Below, piece after piece: positions 5,950-25,313 of a stretch of DNA of 47,608 nucleotides (within the stretch, counting starts at the first letter, position 1; each line of letters begins with the position of its first letter). The notes under the pieces are model-generated. The model had not been told where the DNA came from. It was given only the letters and a program-made list of their open reading frames with translations, and ran no database searches. The translations under genes and the position numbers were made by a program. Source of the stretch: Oscillospiraceae bacterium (lineage in GTDB: Bacteria > Bacillota > Clostridia > Oscillospirales > SIG530); NCBI GenBank assembly GCA_015067075.1, contig SVND01000017.1, positions 1 through 47,608 of the forward strand. Direction: 5' to 3'.

Positions 5950-6428
5950 TTCAGCACTTCTCCTTCAAGCTTTTCTATCCTCTGTCCGCTGACCTTTTCA
6001 AGCAGCGGCTCTATAGCTTTTTTCATCGCATCCTCCGCCACATCGTACAGCGGATACAGCACGAATGCACGCTCCGTTATTCTCGGATGGGGAATCGTCA
6101 GCGCTTCAGAGCCGATTTTCCATGTGTCGTAGGTTAAAATGTCGATGTCGATGGTGCGCGGACCGTTTTCAATAAGCTTAATTCGGAAAAGCTCCGTTTC
6201 AATGCTTTTGCAAAGCTTCAAAAGCTTAAACGGCATCAGCGTCGTCTCCGCTTTTACGGCTATATTGTAAAAATCATCTTGATTTTCATATCCTATCGGC
6301 GCTGTAATATAGACAGGCGATATCTTCTGAATATCTATCCCGCCTTCCTTCATCAGCGACAATGCTTTTTTTAAATTTTCCACACAGTTGCCCATATTCG
6401 AGCCCATTGAAAAGTATACTCGCGCCAT
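5946..6428 (-). CDS. folK: 2-amino-4-hydroxy-6-hydroxymethyldihydropteridine pyrophosphokinase
   Basis: FolK (HPPK) transfers pyrophosphate from ATP to 6-hydroxymethyl-dihydropterin, giving the substrate of FolP. The 160 residues match the family length. Visible features are the N-terminal SMGSNMGNCVENL, YITAPIGYENQDDFYNIAV (pterin pocket), the metal/ATP signature GPRTIDIDIL with its DxD, and IPHPRITERAFVLYPL. The Arg-rich loop before GPRT reads ELFRIKLIENGPRT, where homologues commonly have GRxRxxRWGPRT. Two of the usual basic or aromatic positions are thus changed (R to K, RW to EN), which may alter ATP handling. It sits 9 nt after folB, and its stop overlaps the start of the HAD gene. The assignment is firm. 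Confidence 0.95.
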   Translation of the reverse strand: MARVYFSMGSNMGNCVENLKKALSLMKEGGIDIQKISPVYITAPIGYENQDDFYNIAVKAETTLMPFKLLKLCKSIETELFRIKLIENGPRTIDIDILTYDTWKIGSEALTIPHPRITERAFVLYPLYDVAEDAMKKAIEPLLEKVSGQRIEKLEGEVLN

Positions 6429-6437
6429 AATTTTGCC

Positions 6438-6797
6438 CTATCTTTTAAGCTCTGTCGAAAACGACATATATTCAAACTCACCCTCCATGGGCGGTTTAAG
6501 CTTTTTTATCTCAACTTGTACAGATGTCAAAAGTGCAAATTCCCGCAAAAGTGCGTGTGCAACTTTGTACGCCAGCGTCTCTATAAGATTGCACGGCGTA
6601 TCCGTCATTATCCTTTTCACCGTTTCGTACGCGTCGGCATAGCTAACCGTTTTTTCAACGTCATCATCCATTGCCGCCTGCTTTGCATCAAGGTACAACC
6701 GCACGTCGACCATAAAATCCTGCGCCTGCTTTTTTTCATGGTCAAGCACACCGTGGCACGCTGTAAATTTCATATTGTGCATATGAATTATATCCAT
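6438..6797 (-). CDS. folB: Dihydroneopterin aldolase
   Basis: FolB converts 7,8-dihydroneopterin to 6-hydroxymethyl-dihydropterin and glycolaldehyde. From the ATG at 6797 the product is 119 residues, the normal length, beginning MDIIHMHNMKFTACHGVLDHE. The longer frame from 6827 overlaps folP by 26 nt and adds residues not typical of the family. Active-site features are HGVL followed by the conserved Glu, the Tyr of VSYADAYETV, LIETLAYKVAHALL, and the catalytic Lys in VQVEIKKLKPP. It starts 4 nt beyond the folP stop and is followed closely by folK, keeping pathway order. Confidence 0.93.
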   Translation of the reverse strand: MDIIHMHNMKFTACHGVLDHEKKQAQDFMVDVRLYLDAKQAAMDDDVEKTVSYADAYETVKRIMTDTPCNLIETLAYKVAHALLREFALLTSVQVEIKKLKPPMEGEFEYMSFSTELKR

Positions 6798-6801
6798 AAA
6801 A

Positions 6802-7599
6802 CTACCCGTTTCTTCCATAAACAGCATGGAGCATCTTCAGAAGCTTTGCATTTTCCTTTACGTCATGTACACGAAAAAGCCGCGCACCGTCCATGTACGT
6901 CGACGCTGTCAGCGCAAGAGTACCTTCAAGGCGCTCCGTTGTCGGCACATCAAGCGTTATACCGACGACCGACTTGCGCGACACAGCCGTCAGCACGGGA
7001 AAACCATACTGTGTCAGCATATCCGTACAGCCAACAAGCTCAAGGTTCTGCTCATAGGTTTTATTAAATCCAATGCCGAGATCAAGCACTATCGAGGACT
7101 GCTTCACACCGTGCTCCAGCAGTATCTCCACCCTGCGCATCAGCGCCTCGGACACGGCTTGCCACAGTTTTTGACCGTGATACTCCTTATCAAGCGCCGC
7201 GTCATTGTGAGTAAGCACATAGCCTGCGCCATACTGCGCCACAACGTCAGCCATACGCTCGTCCGCCAGCATGGAAACGTCGTTTATTACATCTGCGCCA
7301 AGCTGTAAGCATTTTTCAGCGACCCGGCTCAGCGTCGTGTCAACGGAAATTACAGCACCAAGCTGTTTTACGCCCTCTATCACAGGTGCAAGCCTTTCAA
7401 GCTGGCTTTGCGCCGATGCAGGCGTATAACCGGGACGAGTGCTTTCCGCGCCGATATCAATTATATCTGCGCCGTCTTTTATCATTTTTTCAGCGTACTG
7501 CACCGCTTTTTGCGGTAACAGGTAAAGCCCGCCGTCATAGAAGGAATCCTCGGTAACATTGAGAATACCCATAACGACAGGCTTTGCTTCATCAAGCAT
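6802..7599 (-). CDS. folP: Dihydropteroate synthase
   Basis: FolP condenses hydroxymethyl-dihydropterin pyrophosphate with p-aminobenzoate; it is the sulfonamide target. Motifs in order are VMGILNVTEDSFYDGG, GADIIDIGAESTRPGYTP, DVINDVSML, the loop LTHND, LDLGIGFNKT and AVSRKS. I chose the ATG at 7599 (265 residues) because GCAGGA lies 5 nt upstream. The ATG at 7620 (272 residues) has no SD and sits 4 nt from the folE stop; it remains possible. No residue change that would signal sulfonamide resistance can be judged by eye. Confidence 0.95.
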   Translation of the reverse strand: MLDEAKPVVMGILNVTEDSFYDGGLYLLPQKAVQYAEKMIKDGADIIDIGAESTRPGYTPASAQSQLERLAPVIEGVKQLGAVISVDTTLSRVAEKCLQLGADVINDVSMLADERMADVVAQYGAGYVLTHNDAALDKEYHGQKLWQAVSEALMRRVEILLEHGVKQSSIVLDLGIGFNKTYEQNLELVGCTDMLTQYGFPVLTAVSRKSVVGITLDVPTTERLEGTLALTASTYMDGARLFRVHDVKENAKLLKMLHAVYGRNG

Positions 7600-7624
7600 T
7601 TTATTCCTGCAATAAATCATAATC

Positions 7625-8182
7625 TTATTGTAAAAGAGCCATTACTTCACTGCGACTTCTTGCATCGGAGCGGAACAAGCCGCGAAGCGCCGACGTTTTC
7701 GTTGTCGAGCCGGGCTTTTCAACTCCGCGCATAGTCATGCATAAATGCTCCGCATCTATTACTACGGCGACAGCCACAGCATCAACGGCTTCACAGATGA
7801 AATCCGCTACCTGCGCTGTAAGACGCTCTTGAAGCTGGGGGCGTTTGGCGTAAAGGTCAACTATACGCGCAATTTTGGAAAGCCCCAATATTTTTCCGTT
7901 TTTCGGAATATAAGCAACGCTCGCCTTACCGACAAACGGAAGCAGGTGATGCTCGCACATGGAATACAGCGGTATATCCTTGACGATTATCATTTCCTGA
8001 TGGTCAGCCTCGTTGAAAACCTTTACAACACTTTGCGGATCGGTGTAAAGTCCCGCGAATATCTCTTCATACATGCGGGCGACTCTGTTTGGCGTTTCTA
8101 TAAGTCCTTCGCGGTCTGGATCCTCACCAATGGCGATGAGGATCTCACGGACTGCGTTTTCTATTCTTTGCTTGTCGATCAT
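7625..8182 (-). CDS. folE: GTP cyclohydrolase I
   Basis: FolE converts GTP to dihydroneopterin triphosphate, the first committed folate step. At 185 residues it matches type IA enzymes. The zinc site is visible as the Cys and His of [10 protein letters not shown] and the later Cys in [30 protein letters not shown] and [16 protein letters not shown] are family hallmarks, and [18 protein letters not shown] closes the active site. It begins 3 nt after the pnp stop, so expression probably follows the pnp promoter. No riboswitch is seen. Confidence 0.96.
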
Positions 8183-8185
8183 AGC

Positions 8186-10303
8186 TTACGGTTTCATATC
8201 CTTGATAGCATCCTTGCGGGAGAGGTTAATTCTTCCCTGGCTGTCTATCTCAACAACTTTAACAAGTATCTGATCGCCAACGGATACAACATCCTCAACC
8301 TTTTCAACACGTTCTGTATCAAGCTTGGAAATGTGTACAAGACCTTCCTTACCGGGAGCGATCTCAACGAATGCACCGAAGCTCATAAGGCGAGTTACCT
8401 TGCCCATATAAACCTCACCAATAGGAGGATCGTTTACGATAAGCTCGATAGTCTTCTTAGCCATTTCAGCCTTTTCAAGGTCAACAGCAGCGATAAATAC
8501 TCTTCCGTCGTCCTCGATGTCGATCTTTGCTCCTGTATCGGCAACTATCTTCTGGATAACCTTTCCGCCGGGTCCGATAACTTCGCGGATCTTGTCAACG
8601 TCGATAGTAATTGTCATCATCTTCGGAGCATACTTGGAAAGCTCTGCACGCGGCTTATCAATAGCCTTGAGCATAACGTCGTCAAGGATGATGTTGCGAG
8701 CTTCATGAGTCTGCTTAAGAGCCTGCTTGATTATTTCAGGAAGAAGACCGTCGATCTTGATATCCATCTGGATAGCTGTGATACCGTCGTGAGTACCTGC
8801 AACCTTAAAGTCCATATCGCCGTAGAAGTCTTCAAGACCCTGAATATCAGTCATAGTGATCCATCTGTCCCCCTCTGTGACAAGACCGCAGGAGATGCCT
8901 GCAACGGGAGCTTTGATGGGAACGCCTGCATCCATAAGGGCAAGAGTAGAGCCGCAAACAGAGCCCTGAGATGTGGAACCGTTGGAGGAAAGGACCTCAG
9001 AAACGAGACGGATCGTGTAGGGGAATTCATTTTCATCGGGAATTACGGGCTCAAGAGCACGTTCAGCCAATGCACCGTGACCGATCTCACGTCTGCCGGG
9101 GCCACGGGAGGATTTTGCTTCGCCTACGGAGTAGGGAGGCATATTGTAATGATGCATATAGCGCTTGTATTCTTCCTCGTCGATGCCGTCAAGAAGCTGC
9201 TGTTCGCCCAAAGGAGCGAGTGTTGCAACTGTAAGAACCTGTGTCTGACCGCGAGCGAAAAGACCTGAACCGTGAACACGGGGAAGAAGTGCAACCTCTG
9301 CGGAAAGAGGACGAAGATCGTTAATACCACGACCGTCAACACGTCTGCCTTCGTCGAGGATCCATCTGCGAACGATGTACTTCTGTACCTTGTAGATGCA
9401 CTCTCCGAGCAAAGCCTGAAGCTTTGCAGGCTCCATATCGGGATAAACCTCTGCAAAATGCTCGTTCATCTTGTCAACTATGGGCTTTAAGCGAGCTTCG
9501 CGAACATTCTTATCGTCTGTGTCAAGAGCATACTTAACGTCCTCGATGATGTAATCCTTAACAGCTTCATACATATCGTGGTCAAGCTCCTGGCTGGGAT
9601 ATTCAAACTTCGGCTTGCCGACTTCAGCAACGATGCTGTCGATGAATTCGCATATCTTGATGATTTCCTTATGAGCAAGCATAATGCCTTCGTACATTTC
9701 ATCATCTGTAACAAACTTTGCGCCTGCTTCGATCATAACGACCTTTTCCTTTGTACCTGCAACGGTAAGGGAAAGCTTGCTCTTTTCACGCTGTGCAACA
9801 GTGGGGTTGATGAAATATTCGCCGTCATCGGAAAGACCGACGGAAACGCCGCCGATGGGGCCTGCCCAAGGAATATCGGAAATAGCAATAGCGATAGAAA
9901 CTGCGCACATTGCGGCAATTTCGGGAGAGTTGTCCTGTTCAACGGAGAGAACTGTAGCAACTACAGCAACGTCGTTGCGCATATCCTTCGGGAAAAGAGG
10001 ACGGATAGGACGGTCGATAACGCGAGATGTGAGGATAGCCTTTTCTGTGGGACGGCCTTCACGCTTAAGGAAGCTGCCGGGAATCTTACCGACGGAGTAA
10101 AGCTTTTCTTCGTAATCAACGGAGAGCGGGAAAAAGTCGATGCCGTCACGGGGCTTTGCGGAAGCTGTTGCAGTTGCCAAGACCACTGTGTCGCCGTAGC
10201 GAACCATGCAAGAACCGCCTGCAAGCTGAGCTACCTTGCCAACTTCAACGGAAAACGGTCTGCCTGCAATTTCGGTCGAAAAGACCTTAAAATTTTCGTA
10301 CAT
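8186..10303 (-). CDS. pnp: Polyribonucleotide nucleotidyltransferase (PNPase)
   Basis: PNPase is a 3'-5' phosphorolytic exoribonuclease, homotrimeric and cytoplasmic, important in mRNA decay. At 705 residues it is full length. An N-terminal RNase PH-like domain ([49 protein letters not shown]) is followed by an all-helical linker, a second catalytic RNase PH domain ([60 protein letters not shown]), a KH domain ([17 protein letters not shown]) and an S1 domain ([20 protein letters not shown]). SD AGAGG precedes the ATG. The gene leads an operon with four folate genes and a HAD phosphatase. rpsO, its common neighbour, is absent here. Confidence 0.98.
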
Positions 10304-18091: not shown

Positions 18092-21000
18092 TTATTTGAG
18101 TGTGACAAACGGAAGCGCGATAGTGGCGTCCATTTGCGCAAGCTTTTCTGTAAGCTCCGCCGAAACGTCGCTTAACAGCCATGTATAAAACTGCTTTACC
18201 TGCGCATCCTCTAACTTGTCAGATGCAGAAACAGGTAGCATACTCATTATATTATAACTCTTTATCGGCTCCAGGTCAACTGTAATATATCCTTTATTCG
18301 AATTTTTTTCAAAAATCGACCAATCGCCAACATCCTTTTCGCTGATTTTAAGATGCGCCGTAAGCTTCGAGCCAAATATATCCACCGCGCTGTCAAGCAT
18401 ATTATTATGCGTAATACTCTTCATCATATGCCAATAGATATACTCGTCATCGTTTTTCACGCCTGCCAACAGCGTTGCTGTTTTAAGCGCTGTACCGAGC
18501 ATCGTGGGCAGATTATCATTGTTTATAAAAACACCCAAGCCGCCTTTAAAGCCGCTGACAGACGTCAGCACACGGTATTTTGTATTACCGCTCATATCCG
18601 CGCCGTAAAAGCCTATCTTCGCCGCATCTCCTTCGCTGTAGCAAAGCCATACGTCTTCATCGTCGCAGTACAGCACGCAAGGCGTTTTCATTTTTTTGAA
18701 ATCGGCAAAAGCCGTTTTGAAGCGGTTTTCCTTCGTCCAATGCTCTTTCCACATACCGTCGGGATCGTACATCTCTATATCGACCGTCGTTTCAAGTGAT
18801 TGTACCTTTTTAAGCTGTACTATTTTTTCAAGCTTTCCGTCATTGTATATCCGCTCATTCACCGTAGTCACACTTCTTTGCATGAACAGATACGGCTTCG
18901 ATGCGCTCGGCATATACGCCACCGCATAAACAGTTTCATCCGTTTTATATGCGTTTTCGTTTGCCGTTTCGCCTTCGGCAAGCTCATCCTGCTCCGTTTT
19001 CAGCGCCATCATCACCGATTCCTCGGTAAAGGGCGCGGCAAGCTGTGAAAGCCCACTCAATTGCTCCGTTATACATACGATATCGCCCGTTTCCTTATTT
19101 TCAGAAATGATAAGCGTCCTCGTAAGCGCCGTCAGTCTGAAGCTCGGCTCCATTGCATATGCCGAGCCACCCGTAGGTCTTTCATCAACACCTGAGCCCC
19201 ATACGGGAATCAGAATTATATAAGCCGACTCAAGCTGTGTCGCCGCTATGGGTAAGGTCACTGTGTATGTGCTGACCGTGTCGTACATCATCGCCGCCTC
19301 ACCCTTTTGTATAAGCGATTGCTCGCTCATGGAGCTGTCGGAATAAATCATATATACCATAAACGGTATATTGTCGTTTTTCGGAGCTATCTGCGCAAAT
19401 TGCATCGTTATCTCCATATCCTTATCGGGCACAAGGTCAAGCTTAGCCGCCGTATAGTAAAAGCTACCGTTTTTATTGCCTACGACTGCTTCAGATATGG
19501 GAACGAATTGCACGGTGTATTCATTTTTAACAAGCTGTAACGAAAGTCCGATCTCCTTGAGCGTTTCCGAATCCTTTATCACCTTTGATACGATAGGCTT
19601 CGGCAAAAGGAGCTCAGGGAGAAGCTGCTCATTCAGCGTAATGCTGTCTACCCTGCACGGTACCGCCGTTTTCACAAGGTATTCGTTTATATACTCCTTT
19701 ATCAAGTTCGTGTCGCTGACGGGCACCGTCTGCAATATTACCTTATTACTTTCAGTCATCGTTGCTGAAATTCCGATTGAGCTCATAGTCGCCTGATGAC
19801 ATCCTCGCCACTTTTGCGTTTGGTAAAGCATATAGAAATCAGGCTGTGCAGGAAGCATCAGCGGAGAAATATCAAATCCGTCATATACGCCATCGCCATC
19901 GCTGTCAATTATCTTCTTTTTTGTACCGATAAGATCCTCATGGGAATTTGATAAAAGATCCCTGTCCGTGTCATAGCCTGAAAGGTCTGCTAAAAGACCG
20001 TTTCTGCTTAAAGCCGCCGTCACCGTCGCAACAGGCCGCGATGCGGAGAGCGTATATTCCGTTTGGGTTGGCGCATAAAGCTCTCTTGACGCCGTTATAG
20101 TATAGCTGTCAAAAGGCAGATTATAAAACGTCACAACACCAAGCCCATCCGTCACAGCCTTCACAGTGATATTGCTTCCCGTAAGCGTTATCTCCGTTTC
20201 CGAGACGCCAACGCCCGTTGTGGACTGCGCAGTCACCGTAAGCGTGCCCTTACCTGCTTCCACAAGGGAAAAATACGCCGATGCAAAAGCGGAAATCGAA
20301 TTTTCATCGTCTTCATTTTTCACGCTTGCCGTAATATACACCTTGTCGCCGTTTTCACCGCCCAAGGAATACTTTACCTTGTTATCGTCAGGCGTCGTCC
20401 ATTCGGGAATCGTTATCTGGAATGTTTTTTGAACGCTTTTTCCTGCGGCAATGCTTACGGTCTGCTCTGCAAGCACCTCGCCCGCAAACTCTATCTTCAC
20501 ATATGCGTTTTCACAATCAGCAGTACCCTCGTTCGTTATAAACAGTGTCATCTCCGCCGTCTCGCCGCCTGTTACAGCGCCCCTTAAAATACGCATATCC
20601 GTTATCTTTACGTCTGCACTTCGCTTATCAGCTATCTCGTCAAGCTCTGCCCTTCCGATATCGGCGGTACTGCCCTCATCAAACACGCGCACTGTGTTTT
20701 CGCCCGCGCCGTTTCCAAGCTGACTGTATGGATCTGCCACAGCGGAAAAGCATACGGCACCTTCATTTTCAACTGTATAGCTTACGGAAAGAGTCGTGCA
20801 GGGATACTCGTCAGCTATCTGTGTACCCATGTATTTTCCGTTTACATAAAGTTTCACAGCCACACCCTCAAACGGTGCGTAGCCTTCGGGCATATTGGTA
20901 TAAACATCGGCACAAAGTGTTATCTGCTCGCCCTTTTTGACCGTGCCCTCACCTATATAGAGGCATTTCTCCGTCAGATACGTTTCACGGTTTACCACGG

Positions 21001-22357
21001 GCAGTGTTCTTTCAAGGCTCTTGCCGTTTGAGAGCACAAGTGAAAAGCTCATTTCCTGCGCAATATAAGGAACATAATACTCAAAGGGGATATTTTCCCC
21101 GTGACCGCCTGCTTTTACCGTATATTTATATACCTTGCTCGAATACAGCCTACCGTCAATATACATTTGCGCCTTCGTTTCACTGTATGCGCCCGTTTTA
21201 TAGTCGGAAAATCCGAGAGAGCCTTTAAGCGTACCGCCTGCACCGATAACACCCTGCCACGCTTCATCGGTAAATCGTGTGGAAATAACGGTCTGCGTAT
21301 CGTACGGCTCTGCCCACGGCGCAGTCCAGCTCACATCATACTCGCCGTCACCCGCTTGCTCAAGTTGCACGTACACCTGCACGGCATTGTTGCTATTATC
21401 CTTATCCACAGCACCGTAAATATCACCAAGCTCACATTTTACGGCAAGCCCGCCTTTTTGGCGCACATCATCGCTTATGATATATTTTATCACCGACGGC
21501 GTTCTGACCTCGCCTTCACCTGCCGCCACCGTCACGGGACGCACATCGTAAAGCTCGCCGTCAATATACACGTTAAGCGTCGTTATTACAGCGTCGGAGC
21601 ATACGGTTGCTTTAGTTTTCGCTGTCAGTGTCAGCACATTTCCTGCAATTTCATACGCCATATCAACGGAGACGTCGCTTTCCGTTTTTTCAGCCTGCAC
21701 CGTGACCGTGGCATAGCTGTATCCCTTGCCGTCAGCATGCTTTGCAATCACCGTGTATTCTCCTGCTCTGCTCGGCGCAGTATAAACACCGTTTTTATCA
21801 ATAGTGCCGCAGTTATATCCGCTGACACACAACTGTTCAACGCTTTCACCCGTAAATTTTATGCTTGAATTCGGCGCTACAGTCACTTTTTCAGGTGCTA
21901 TTTTGCAAGTCTCATCGCTTTCAACGTAAAAATGCAAAATACTGTGTGATGCAAGCTTTTTTCCGTTTTTCAGAGCCGTACCCTGCCTTAATCCCATGCT
22001 GTAGCGCATACCCTTTTGGTAAACACCGTCAGAAGCGCTTATTGATAAAACAGAGCCGTCCTCTGATGCCCTTACGGAAACGGAAACGCTGTTTCCGTCC
22101 AAATCCTTAACGTAAATATCCTTTTGTGAAAGCTGAGAAATGTCAAGCGGTACACCGCACCATAAGCGCCATTGCTTATCGGCAGAAACGGGCTTGTCAA
22201 AAATATACTCTCCTATACCCTCGCCGCTTTGTGTGACAAAAAGCATATCAGCCTTTGCTCCAACATCATTTATATCAGCTTCATCGCAGGCGCACAAAAG
22301 CATCAGCGCCGCTATTAAAGCAGCGATGATGATACTTTTTACGGTACAACGCTTCAT
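18092..22357 (-). CDS. Giant multidomain surface lipoprotein
   Basis: This 1421-residue lipoprotein has lipobox LCAC (Cys24) behind a good signal peptide, with SD AAGGAG. In order it shows an SbsA/Big_5-like Ig domain at about 40-150; an Ig-like repeat at about 160-220 (TIDKNGVYTAPSRAGEYTVI); several CARDB-like adhesion repeats to about 690 (MTLFITNEGTADCENAYVKI); a carboxypeptidase-regulatory/CNA-B-like sandwich at about 700-780 (GLGVVTFYNLPFDSYTITA); and a calcium-type Asp-rich segment (DTDRDLLSNSHEDL, DSDGDGVYDGFDISP). A C-terminal 500-600 residues has no family I recognise. The design suggests a matrix or adhesion protein, with the C-terminus possibly enzymatic. It is flanked by the Tet(M)-like gene (11 nt) and the small lipoprotein. 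The function is not established. Confidence 0.75.
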   Translation of the reverse strand: MKRCTVKSIIIAALIAALMLLCACDEADINDVGAKADMLFVTQSGEGIGEYIFDKPVSADKQWRLWCGVPLDISQLSQKDIYVKDLDGNSVSVSVRASEDGSVLSISASDGVYQKGMRYSMGLRQGTALKNGKKLASHSILHFYVESDETCKIAPEKVTVAPNSSIKFTGESVEQLCVSGYNCGTIDKNGVYTAPSRAGEYTVIAKHADGKGYSYATVTVQAEKTESDVSVDMAYEIAGNVLTLTAKTKATVCSDAVITTLNVYIDGELYDVRPVTVAAGEGEVRTPSVIKYIISDDVRQKGGLAVKCELGDIYGAVDKDNSNNAVQVYVQLEQAGDGEYDVSWTAPWAEPYDTQTVISTRFTDEAWQGVIGAGGTLKGSLGFSDYKTGAYSETKAQMYIDGRLYSSKVYKYTVKAGGHGENIPFEYYVPYIAQEMSFSLVLSNGKSLERTLPVVNRETYLTEKCLYIGEGTVKKGEQITLCADVYTNMPEGYAPFEGVAVKLYVNGKYMGTQIADEYPCTTLSVSYTVENEGAVCFSAVADPYSQLGNGAGENTVRVFDEGSTADIGRAELDEIADKRSADVKITDMRILRGAVTGGETAEMTLFITNEGTADCENAYVKIEFAGEVLAEQTVSIAAGKSVQKTFQITIPEWTTPDDNKVKYSLGGENGDKVYITASVKNEDDENSISAFASAYFSLVEAGKGTLTVTAQSTTGVGVSETEITLTGSNITVKAVTDGLGVVTFYNLPFDSYTITASRELYAPTQTEYTLSASRPVATVTAALSRNGLLADLSGYDTDRDLLSNSHEDLIGTKKKIIDSDGDGVYDGFDISPLMLPAQPDFYMLYQTQKWRGCHQATMSSIGISATMTESNKVILQTVPVSDTNLIKEYINEYLVKTAVPCRVDSITLNEQLLPELLLPKPIVSKVIKDSETLKEIGLSLQLVKNEYTVQFVPISEAVVGNKNGSFYYTAAKLDLVPDKDMEITMQFAQIAPKNDNIPFMVYMIYSDSSMSEQSLIQKGEAAMMYDTVSTYTVTLPIAATQLESAYIILIPVWGSGVDERPTGGSAYAMEPSFRLTALTRTLIISENKETGDIVCITEQLSGLSQLAAPFTEESVMMALKTEQDELAEGETANENAYKTDETVYAVAYMPSASKPYLFMQRSVTTVNERIYNDGKLEKIVQLKKVQSLETTVDIEMYDPDGMWKEHWTKENRFKTAFADFKKMKTPCVLYCDDEDVWLCYSEGDAAKIGFYGADMSGNTKYRVLTSVSGFKGGLGVFINNDNLPTMLGTALKTATLLAGVKNDDEYIYWHMMKSITHNNMLDSAVDIFGSKLTAHLKISEKDVGDWSIFEKNSNKGYITVDLEPIKSYNIMSMLPVSASDKLEDAQVKQFYTWLLSDVSAELTEKLAQMDATIALPFVTLK

Positions 22358-22368
22358 AACGCTTCTCC

Positions 22369-24345
22369 TTAAATCTGCTTTTCCTGTATGGCATCACGGG
22401 CATACAGGATCCATTTCGACCTTTCACGCGGATCGGGGCCGCGCCTTTTTGCCACAGCCCTCACGTCGGGCGGGCTGTCATTATATCCGTAAAACGACGA
22501 GGCAAATTTCGCTTTACCGCTCGTTTGCGCACGCAGTCTTACAGGATAATCCATAGATGTCGCTGCGGGAACTATGGCTTCAATAGTAAAATCCGTTCCA
22601 TGCATCACGGGCGACTCAAAGCTTCCGCGCATCATAGTTATATCTCCGATAACTCGGCTTACAAATTCGCTCGGAGCAGTTATGCGAAGCTTCAAAAGCG
22701 GTTCCAAAAGCTTTGTTTCGCAATTTTGAAGTCCGTTCATAAAAGCCATGGGCGTTGCCACAAAAAAGTCAAGAGGGTGAGTGTGGATAGTGTGATGCTC
22801 ACCGTCCGTCAGCGTAACCTTAAGGTCCGTGACCTCCCAGCCGTAAAGTCCCTGCTCAAGGCAAGTGACAAGGCTTTGCTTTATATGCTCCTGGTATTTA
22901 TAAAAAAGCTTATTGTGCGGCACTTTTCCGCCGTCATAAACAAAGCCCGCTCCGCGCTTAAGCGGCTCGATAAAAAGCTGAACGCAAGCCCAGCACGGCT
23001 TTGGCATAGTATAAGCATCAAATCCAATTCCGTTTTGGCAGGGCGTTTCTTTATATATAATAGTCGGCGGTGTAAAGCTCGGCGCGATACCATATCTTTC
23101 TCTGATAAGCGTATCAATTATCTCAAGCTGTACGCTTCCCGTTATATCTATTTGCGCCTCCCGAGAAAGCCTGTCAAACCTGTAGTTGAGCAAAGGCTCT
23201 TCCTCCGTAAGCTCCTTCAGCGCCGTGATAAGTTCAGTAAGCTTCGACCCATCCGTCGGTGTTACCGTAACGGTAAGATAGGGGTTTGCAAGCGCATAAG
23301 CCTTCTCGCTGTACATACTGCTGACAGCTTCGCCGATAACGTCGCCTGCGCGCATACTGCTCGCACCGCATATGGCTGCTATCTCTCCTGCAAACGCTTT
23401 TCCGCTGTCGTAAAGCGTAACGCCCTTAAACGAGCGTATCTGAGCAATTTTTTCCGCAACGTCAAGCTTTTCTCCGCGCCGTGTAACACCCAGCGCCGAA
23501 AGCTCCGCCCTCGCTGAAAGCTCGCCGCCGAAAAGTCGCACATAAGCTGTTTTTCCCATATCCGTGCCGCTTTCCACCTTGAAAACGACAGCCGACAGGT
23601 TTTCTGTTTTCTTTGCCGACGCATCCGGCAAAAGCTGTGTCACAGCCTGCAAGACCTGCTCTGTTCCGACGTTTTGAATTGATGCTCCGCAAACGATAGG
23701 AAAAGTCTTGCATTGCGCCGTACATTCACGCAGTATTACCCCTATTTCCTCGCCGTTTATCCGCTCGGAAAGGTACATCTCAAGCGCTCTGTCGTCAACG
23801 TCCGCAAGCTGTGCCAAAATATCCTCATCCTGCTTTTTATAGCTCGCGCATTCCCTTGAGCCTTCGCCCTCAATATCTGAAAGCAAAACAAATCCGTCGC
23901 CAAACCGCTTGCGAAGCTGAACCATCACGTCATCCGCATCGCTTCCCGCTCTGTCGATCTTGTTCACAAAAACGGCACGCGGTATGCTCATCCGCTTAAG
24001 CACTTCCCAAAGCTGTTCCGTATAGGCGTCAACGCCCTCAACTGCGGAAACGATTAGTATCGCGCCGTCCAATACTGCCAACGCACGCTCCGCCTCTCCT
24101 GCAAAATCTATATGACCCGGCGTATCTATTATATTTATCCTTTTTCCGCCATACTCAACGGTAGCTGCCGCCGAACGCACGGAGATTCCACGGCTTTTTT
24201 CAACAGCCATGCTGTCCGTTTTAGCCGTACCCTTGTCAACACTTCCCGCACTGCGTACAGCGCCGCACGCACAAAGTATCTGCTCCGTCAGCGTGGTCTT
24301 TCCCGCATCAACGTGAGCCATGATACCGAGATTTATTATATCCAT
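22369..24345 (-). CDS. Tet(M)-like ribosomal-protection translational GTPase
   Basis: This 658-residue translation GTPase has EF-G-like architecture and is closest in pattern to the Tet(M)/Tet(O)/Tet(W) group. G1 is AHVDAGKT, the switch I region reads SRGISVRSAA, G3 is DTPGH and G4 is NKID. Domains II-V follow; the domain IV start GLYGWEVTDLKVTLTDG matches Tet(M) GLYGWNVTD. The tip loop, which in Tet(M) contains SPVSTP and displaces tetracycline, here reads TIHTHP (about residues 519-524), so the key Pro-Val pair is missing. It may therefore protect against another ligand or serve a housekeeping ribosome function; resistance should not be assumed. TAATG overlap couples it to the PHP gene. Confidence 0.88.
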   Translation of the reverse strand: MDIINLGIMAHVDAGKTTLTEQILCACGAVRSAGSVDKGTAKTDSMAVEKSRGISVRSAAATVEYGGKRINIIDTPGHIDFAGEAERALAVLDGAILIVSAVEGVDAYTEQLWEVLKRMSIPRAVFVNKIDRAGSDADDVMVQLRKRFGDGFVLLSDIEGEGSRECASYKKQDEDILAQLADVDDRALEMYLSERINGEEIGVILRECTAQCKTFPIVCGASIQNVGTEQVLQAVTQLLPDASAKKTENLSAVVFKVESGTDMGKTAYVRLFGGELSARAELSALGVTRRGEKLDVAEKIAQIRSFKGVTLYDSGKAFAGEIAAICGASSMRAGDVIGEAVSSMYSEKAYALANPYLTVTVTPTDGSKLTELITALKELTEEEPLLNYRFDRLSREAQIDITGSVQLEIIDTLIRERYGIAPSFTPPTIIYKETPCQNGIGFDAYTMPKPCWACVQLFIEPLKRGAGFVYDGGKVPHNKLFYKYQEHIKQSLVTCLEQGLYGWEVTDLKVTLTDGEHHTIHTHPLDFFVATPMAFMNGLQNCETKLLEPLLKLRITAPSEFVSRVIGDITMMRGSFESPVMHGTDFTIEAIVPAATSMDYPVRLRAQTSGKAKFASSFYGYNDSPPDVRAVAKRRGPDPRERSKWILYARDAIQEKQI

Positions 24346-25271
24346 TACTTCACAAAATAAGGCTGAGTATTCGCCTTGTATCCGTTAATATCTGTTATTT
24401 CAACGTGAACGTATCCGTCGTCGGGATCAATTTTAAACGTACCCTGTGTAAGAGGCTGACCTTCCTTTGCAACGATGCGCTTGGTCTTTCTCATTTCCGT
24501 GGTAAATACAATGCTCTTTGCCGGTGCGCATTTTACAGTCATAACGCCGTCCTCAATATAAAGCTCATCTATCTGAGCGCCAGTGGAAGCGTAAAATTCA
24601 CCGTTTTTCAGCGCCTGCATGACAGTGCCGTATTCAAGCTTTTCAGCCTTTATCATAACGTAACCGCCGAAGGAATCGTAAAACTGATTGTGGTTGTGGT
24701 TATCGTCCGTCGCCGTACACCAAACTCGCTTACCCATGCGAAGAAAATCGTCCATTACATAAGGAACGTAATCCTCATAGCCCGCTACATAACAGCCGTG
24801 ATTGTATATTTCGATAAAATCAACGCCTTCAAGACCGCTGTAATCACTGTAATTTTGCAGAGACCAACGGGGATGGTTGTAGGATACCATATAACCCTTT
24901 TCTTTGGCATAGCGAATAAACTCATTTACACAGTCAACGGAATAGTTGAAACTAAAATCACATCTTGAAAAGCTTGCGCTGTAATCAGGCGCATAAAGAT
25001 TGATATGATACGTTTTAAGGTATTTAAAGTTCGGGCTTTTATTTTCCGTTATATCGACCTCACATCCGCAAATAGGCAAAAAGCTTTCATCGGCAAGCTC
25101 GCTGTGATCCTTAAAGCAGTTGTGATCTGTGTATGCGACAATGGAATAACCCTTTGCCATATACTCCTGTTTTATCTGTTCGGGAGAAAGCTTTCCGTCA
25201 GAGCAAGTTGAATGACAGTGAAGATTAGCTTTATAAAAAGTACCTTTGTCGGGAATAAGATATCGTTTCAT
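24345..25271 (-). CDS. PHP-domain phosphoesterase
   Basis: From the ATG at 25271 (SD AAAGGA, 8 nt upstream) the protein has 308 residues; the ATG at 25280 abuts the SD and is less likely. It carries a polymerase-and-histidinol-phosphatase fold: NLHCHSTCSDG (HxH and D), VAYTDHN, CGCEVDITE (Glu), SYNHPRW, IYNHGCY and the late TATDDNHNHN supply the metal ligands. The last 60 residues form a small beta domain common in CehA/PHP phosphoesterases. The substrate is unknown. It leads the operon that runs on to recA and pgsA, and its TAA overlaps the ATG of the Tet(M)-like gene. Confidence 0.88.
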   Translation of the reverse strand: MKRYLIPDKGTFYKANLHCHSTCSDGKLSPEQIKQEYMAKGYSIVAYTDHNCFKDHSELADESFLPICGCEVDITENKSPNFKYLKTYHINLYAPDYSASFSRCDFSFNYSVDCVNEFIRYAKEKGYMVSYNHPRWSLQNYSDYSGLEGVDFIEIYNHGCYVAGYEDYVPYVMDDFLRMGKRVWCTATDDNHNHNQFYDSFGGYVMIKAEKLEYGTVMQALKNGEFYASTGAQIDELYIEDGVMTVKCAPAKSIVFTTEMRKTKRIVAKEGQPLTQGTFKIDPDDGYVHVEITDINGYKANTQPYFVK

Positions 25272-25313
25272 TTTTTTCATCCTTTCACAGCTACGCTATA
25301 TTTATATTATATT

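Follow-up and report, generated by a model that had tools for sequence, protein, structure and literature searches.

Tet proteins have been treated as a single subfamily (Atkinson 2015, PMC4342817) or as one group (Margus 2007, PMC1780047), as far as the accessible text of both studies goes; the former raised the possibility that NYN fusions are a new mechanism of resistance. In Tet(M), Pro509 is described as sitting in the drug site, where it contacts C1054 (accessible part of the review PMC8161019). In EF-G, H583 and Q507 are described as contacting the tRNA-mRNA complex during translocation (PMC9307594, accessible part). The diversity of the family was extended by Berglund 2020 (PMC7725328), which, in its accessible text, predicts many protection families, among them some in Paenibacillus and a clade from pig gut that contains no known gene. 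Several of these predicted families were reported as inactive in E. coli, and other natural substrates were considered possible for some. A Cloacibacillus gene, 34.7% identical to tetB(P), conferred no phenotype on E. coli, and activity was reported for some divergent OtrA-like genes.

Here we describe a GTPase encoded in a 47,608-nt stretch of DNA from an Oscillospiraceae bacterium (hereafter the window, meaning the whole stretch analyzed). It belongs to a real, conserved, widespread and unnamed branch of Tet-like GTPases, for which we coin the name HTHP clade. Its members are most likely accessory A-site GTPases and not dedicated tetracycline protectors, and a label of tetracycline-resistance gene is probably wrong. 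The families predicted by Berglund 2020 may overlap this clade, which the accessible text of that study neither separates nor describes. The HTHP tip is also absent from the accessible portions of Atkinson 2015 and Margus 2007, and our search, which covered mostly openly available literature, returned no published description of the group.

Results

The window encodes a GTPase of the EF-G/Tet(M) type

The features of the locus are listed below, with positions in the window.

22369..24345, minus strand: coding sequence of the HTHP-type Tet/EF-G-like translational GTPase, 658 aa, an ORF with an ATG start
22765..22800, minus strand: domain IV tip loop III, residues 516-527, EHHTIHTHPLDF, equivalent to the SPVSTP loop of Tet(M)
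22987..23007, minus strand: domain IV tip loop I, residues 447-453, MPKPCWA, with the invariant C451
24292..24318, minus strand: G1/P-loop AHVDAGKTT, residues 10-18
24181..24183, minus strand: Ser55 of switch I (RGIS), a Thr in most rows of other clades
22375..22422, minus strand: C-terminal helix, residues 642-657, with I646 and R650 conserved in the HTHP clade
24345..25280, minus strand: PHP-domain phosphoesterase (CehA/McbA-like, 311 aa), upstream, TAATG overlap
18092..22357, minus strand: putative lipoprotein, 1421 aa, downstream, co-directional, 11-nt gap

Domains G, III, IV and V of the protein score above the Pfam gathering threshold and domain II just below it. With domains G and II-V and intact G1, G3 and G4 motifs, the protein falls in the EF-G/EF2 family. 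The key residues of the P-loop, of DTPGH with its catalytic His, and of NKxD are kept in 79 of 79 HTHP rows of our alignment (D13, K16, T17, D74, G77, H78, N128, K129 and D131). In the same 79 rows, the RGIT of switch I reads RGIS. From fold and motifs, we infer that the protein binds the ribosome and that the ribosome stimulates its GTP hydrolysis; which species it may displace, and any role in stress, are likewise predictions.

An AlphaFold2 model of the window protein, computed from a 30-row alignment, has a mean pLDDT of 88.4 and a pTM of 0.82, and the blocks carrying the tip loops (441-460 and 511-530) have pLDDT values of 83-94. The chains of EF-G and Tet(M) match this model over nearly its entire length (VIA-align 2). 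Superposition of Tet(M) (3j9y) on residues 1-649 of the model aligns 624 residues with a Z score of 34.1 and an rmsd of 9.9, a large value that is taken to reflect the positions of the domains. Besides the window protein, the source genome (2.26 Mb, about 96% complete) encodes an EF-G and one further EF-G-like protein; no second Tet-like protein was found in it with the thresholds applied.

The tip of domain IV is conserved and differs from that of Tet(M)

The alignment with Tet(M) is continuous through GLYGW-VTD, which reads GLYGWEVTD in the window protein and GLYGWNVTD in Tet(M), as the first-pass annotation had noted. Its reading of the adjacent loop was also borne out: SPVSTP in Tet(M) (508-513) is replaced by TIHTHP (519-524), T519, I520, H521, T522, H523 and P524 being aligned with S508, P509, V510, S511, T512 and P513, respectively.

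We aligned 180 relatives, after dropping 14 duplicate or truncated rows. Of these, 79 carry HTHP, and two further rows, L132 (HSNP) and L133 (HTKA), join the clade by their place in the tree. At the position of Tet(M) Pro509, the 79 HTHP rows have Trp (36), Ile (27), Val (13) or Glu (1), with Leu and Met in L111 and L153; Pro occurs in none. The loop as a whole has the consensus H-x-x-H-T-H-P-x-D-F in relatives above about 38% identity. K449, P450, C451, W452, H518, H521, D526 and F527 are invariant in the 81 rows of the clade, and H523, within HTHP, is found in 79 of the 81. The choice of the 79 rows by motif inflates the conservation of residues 521-524 and leaves that of 447-453 and 518 unaffected. 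MPKPCWA and HTHPLDF are the best-conserved 7-mers of the protein, on a par with the P-loop, in the case of HTHP partly by construction. The window protein has the four features by which we recognize the clade, namely KPCW, H518, H521 and HTHPxDF.

Conservation was also scored independently of this alignment, by finding homologues through protein similarity and then searching for HTHPxDF with a DNA pattern. In 148 Paenibacillaceae-like genomes, the motif is present in every one of the 83 homologues with 39% identity or more, and in 394 genomes from the order of the window, in every one of the 39 homologues with 38% or more (family labels such as Paenibacillaceae-like are deduced from named relatives). 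Motif sites outside homologues number 5 of 88 in the former set, including one that reads HTHPLDF (genome G1199), and 6 of 45 in the latter. The HTHP tip is thus conserved, neither a chance reading nor a degenerate sequence.

The window protein branches outside the tetracycline clade

Trees were computed with EF-G as outgroup, either carefully from 79 rows with loop III removed, or quickly from 180 rows with loops I and III removed. The first-pass annotation had proposed a phylogeny with known ribosomal-protection proteins. In the careful tree, all those tested are gathered in a tetracycline clade of 23 rows with a support of 100/100, which comprises Tet(M,O,S,W,Q,36), TetB(P), OtrA-like and unnamed STPADF-type proteins, and the window protein lies outside it. 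Grouping HTHP with TetB(P) in one clade is rejected (p-AU 3.15e-5). The EF-G rows form a 100/100 clade that also leaves out the window protein. A third group, named here GGDF after its loop, branches first, and the remainder divides into the HTHP clade on one side and the tetracycline clade with three odd-loop rows on the other. The tetracycline clade and the odd rows group at 96/89, and these with HTHP against GGDF at 99/94. Support for the HTHP node itself is low (87/71 in the careful tree, 62 in the quick one); both this and the intermediate loops of L132 and L133 within the clade count against our main reading.

The three odd rows (L134, L022 and L139; loops KPSDF, KPDDF and LPSDF) have neither the tip histidines nor the Ser-Pro-Val loop, and one of them is on a contig labelled Gammaproteobacteria.

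Within the GGDF type, a C-terminal YacP-like NYN domain is present in the one member checked, and many others have a matching length. L027 (positions 6001-8574), L129, L130 and L147 encode such NYN_YacP-fused or short KHTEGGDF Tet-like proteins, outside all known protectors; L129 and L130 are automatically named tetracycline protection proteins. Most proteins of this clade have His at 451, 518 and 521. L147 is on an unverified human-gut phage contig, and others are on Agathobacter and Ligilactobacillus plasmids.

Scores against the curated NCBIfam model for tetracycline protection (tet_protect equivalog, NF012153) agree with these positions, TetB(P) reaching 959 bits and Tet(M) 880 bits, versus a cut-off of 775 and a score of 542.5 bits for the window protein. 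The model is the best NCBIfam match of the window protein, and two further HTHP members score 505 and 580 bits. An OtrA-like Embleya protein, located inside the tetracycline clade, is also under the cut-off (712 bits). The remark of the first-pass annotation that such proteins are auto-annotated as tetracycline resistance is borne out by RGI, which calls a Paenibacillus member tetB(P), at 37.9% identity, with the qualification that the window protein would go unnamed under the NCBIfam model.

The tetracycline loop appears to be derived

H518 aligns with H583 of E. coli EF-G (H584 with Met1 counted). This tip histidine is present in 32 of 32 EF-G rows, 39 of 41 GGDF rows and 81 of 81 rows of the HTHP clade, and in none of the 23 rows of the tetracycline clade. 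As the tetracycline clade has lost a residue that the HTHP clade keeps, its loop appears to be derived. On the tree, His518 and His521 need two changes each and C451 needs one. With EF-G rooting, the simplest account of these sequences is that the tip histidines were lost toward the tetracycline clade and that the Ser-Pro-Val loop was gained there.

An equivalence of C451 with EF-G Q507 was considered and rejected. In the alignment with E. coli EF-G, C451 faces Q514 (Met1 counted), and Q507 lies within a loop I insertion of EF-G that Tet-like proteins lack.

Genomic context and distribution

In the window, the PHP, GTPase and lipoprotein-like genes run in the same direction, with spacings of -1 and 11 nt. 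The translational coupling to a PHP phosphoesterase, pointed out in the first-pass annotation, is real in the window, where stop and start overlap by one base in TAATG, but it is no feature of the family, a PHP homologue being found in 0 of 48 other loci. A conserved PHP operon was accordingly discarded: a search of the 604 ORFs of the 49 loci retrieved only the window's own gene. The 1421-aa lipoprotein gene is not conserved beside relatives either; its product has weak CARDB and carboxypeptidase-regulatory-like matches (18092-22357).

Counts of neighbors and leaders omit two of the 49 loci, L216 and L229, in which the GTPase was not recovered. In the others, no conserved neighbor hinting at a function was found, which counts against our main reading. 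Shared neighbors belong to common families only (transporter ATPases, MATE-like and AraC-like proteins, as read from the sequence and not from a database), and one neighbor block is common to three close relatives. An antibiotic-inducible leader or attenuator was likewise discarded. Of 47 loci, 11 have a hairpin followed by a T run upstream; the distances of these sites are scattered, the sites often lie close to the end of another gene, and no attenuator-like pattern is shared upstream of the GTPase gene in these 47 loci. The GC content of the gene (0.505) is a little above that of the window (0.466), which is not striking.

The HTHP gene is chromosomal and sporadic, and mostly not mobile. 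It is present in 83 of 148 genomes of the soil-type Paenibacillaceae-like family. In wider samples, matches at 1e-100 occur in 9 of 398 genomes of the phylum and matches at 1e-105 in 15 of 391 genomes of the class, and the genome of the window and rows outside HTHP are part of both counts. Of the 72,556 plasmid records, 1029 have any match at 1e-40. Within the best 60 of these and a spread of 60 across the 1029, HTHP was recognized in at least one record, and only one replicon, a 2.7-Mb Paenibacillus one with the member that RGI calls tetB(P), exceeds 36% identity. Phage records reach about 33% identity at best among the 20 of 66 matches listed. Two HTHP genomes, G081 and G339, also hold a canonical SPVSTP gene of the Tet(M/W/O/S) family, above its NCBIfam cut-off. 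Separately, some of the Paenibacillaceae-like genomes of L196, L197, L202 and L157 hold a second protein, OtrA-like or of the GGDF type, in addition to the HTHP one.

Discussion

A candidate A-site clearing factor

We propose that the HTHP GTPase has an accessory role: built like EF-G and Tet(M) and dependent on the ribosome, it would clear A sites at which the obstacle is not tetracycline. We give this reading about an even chance of being correct. Besides fold, GTPase motifs, phylogeny and the conserved tips, it is favored by the scarcity of HTHP among the plasmid records inspected, by the lack of a shared attenuator-like pattern in 47 loci and by the canonical protectors of G081 and G339. 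The protein would represent a deep sister branch of the tetracycline protection proteins. Most likely, it would bind, like Tet(M) and EF-G, to an A site that is vacant or stalled, push domain IV into the decoding centre and leave after GTP hydrolysis. There, H518, H521 and H523, together with K449 and C451 of loop I, would probably touch 16S rRNA, mRNA or the anticodon, or hold a metal. The A sites so cleared or reset might be blocked by a stalled tRNA/mRNA state or by a decoding-site ligand other than tetracycline.

Tetracycline resistance is a less likely function. The protein could still be a divergent protector, whose domain IV displaces the drug with bulky or His residues in place of Pro509 and Val510. 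Its best curated model is that of tetracycline protection, its identity to Tet(M)/TetB(P)-type proteins is about 31-36% over the full length, and the tetracycline clade itself has 7 rows out of 23 with no Pro at the 509 position, so the absence of Pro-Val alone does not disprove activity on tetracycline. Divergent OtrA-like protectors with altered loops can act on the drug, which counts against our main reading, and the accessible text of Berglund 2020 (PMC7725328) reports both predicted Paenibacillus families and active OtrA-like genes. More weight attaches to the phylogeny and to the different, fixed tip than to the missing Pro-Val. The window protein scores below the 775-bit cut-off that TetB(P) and Tet(M) pass, it lies outside the 100/100 clade with a different tip fixed, and G081 and G339 have a second, canonical protector. 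Overall, we regard a divergent tetracycline protector as improbable.

We assign a similarly low probability to protection against a different natural inhibitor of the decoding site, such as an aminoglycoside or a peptide, edeine-like or other, produced by bacteria of soil and gut. The presence of the gene in 83 of 148 soil-type genomes would fit an intrinsic resistance, and the architecture is that of ligand-displacing proteins. However, neither a conserved biosynthetic gene nor a drug pump pattern is linked to it in the 49 loci, nor an attenuator in the 47 leaders; the gene is mostly not mobile, and the loop by itself names no ligand. A secondary EF-G paralogue, with a translocase-like or rescue activity on tRNA-occupied ribosomes, seems to us more doubtful still. 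The EF-G tip histidine is kept, and several further residues, G264, Y484, A530, R573 and P625 among them, are frequent in EF-G and seldom seen in the tetracycline clade. On the other hand, the protein lacks the loop I insertion carrying Q507, its loop III is otherwise unlike that of EF-G (H and T replacing D and S), and the genome already has an EF-G and a second EF-G-like protein.

A wider scenario is conceivable, although we hold it to be rather unlikely. The HTHP clade would be an old branch with a Cys-His3 site at its tip (C451, H518, H521 and H523), which may bind zinc or another metal, or contact the decoding centre, and the NYN-fused branch would have a His-only version. Tetracycline protection would have arisen later, in one crown clade that shed these residues and acquired the Ser-Pro-Val loop. 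In this view, the old branches would serve in general A-site clearing or in ribosome quality control, and tetracycline resistance would have been recruited from them. As a metal or RNA-contact site, the Cys/His cluster is an unproven idea drawn from residue patterns, and the co-occurrence of the four tip residues across clades is only a lead, because it reflects shared ancestry as much as coupling.

If our preferred reading of an accessory A-site GTPase is true, annotation by likeness counts as tetracycline resistance a gene type that occurs in over half of the Paenibacillaceae-like genomes sampled, with scattered occurrences in gut Oscillospirales-like bacteria. Tetracycline protection would then have originated from a non-resistance A-site GTPase that kept the tRNA-contacting histidine of EF-G.

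Comparison with known systems

Among named proteins in plasmid records, TetB(P) (L140 and L141), a tetracycline protection protein of clostridia, is the closest relative of the window protein. The two have the same five domains and are 35-36% identical along their full length, C-terminal tail included. Its tips read FFSPASTPADF and NPFWA, versus HHTIHTHPLDF and KPCWA in the window protein. Tet(M), Tet(O) and Tet(W) share the fold, the GTPase motifs and the GLYGW-VTD context, at about 31-33% identity. They differ in tip loops I and III, and the EF-G tip histidine, present in the window protein, is absent from them. The GGDF clade, with its NYN-domain 'Tet' proteins, also lies outside the tetracycline clade and keeps both the EF-G tip histidine and a His at 521. 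It differs by its loop, KHTEGGDF, and by a His instead of Cys at 451, and forms a separate clade (100/99). Bacterial EF-Gs are about 27-31% identical to the window protein. E. coli EF-G (fusA) has the same architecture, with H583 at the place of H518, whereas the loop I insertion that bears Q507 in canonical EF-G is lacking in the window protein.
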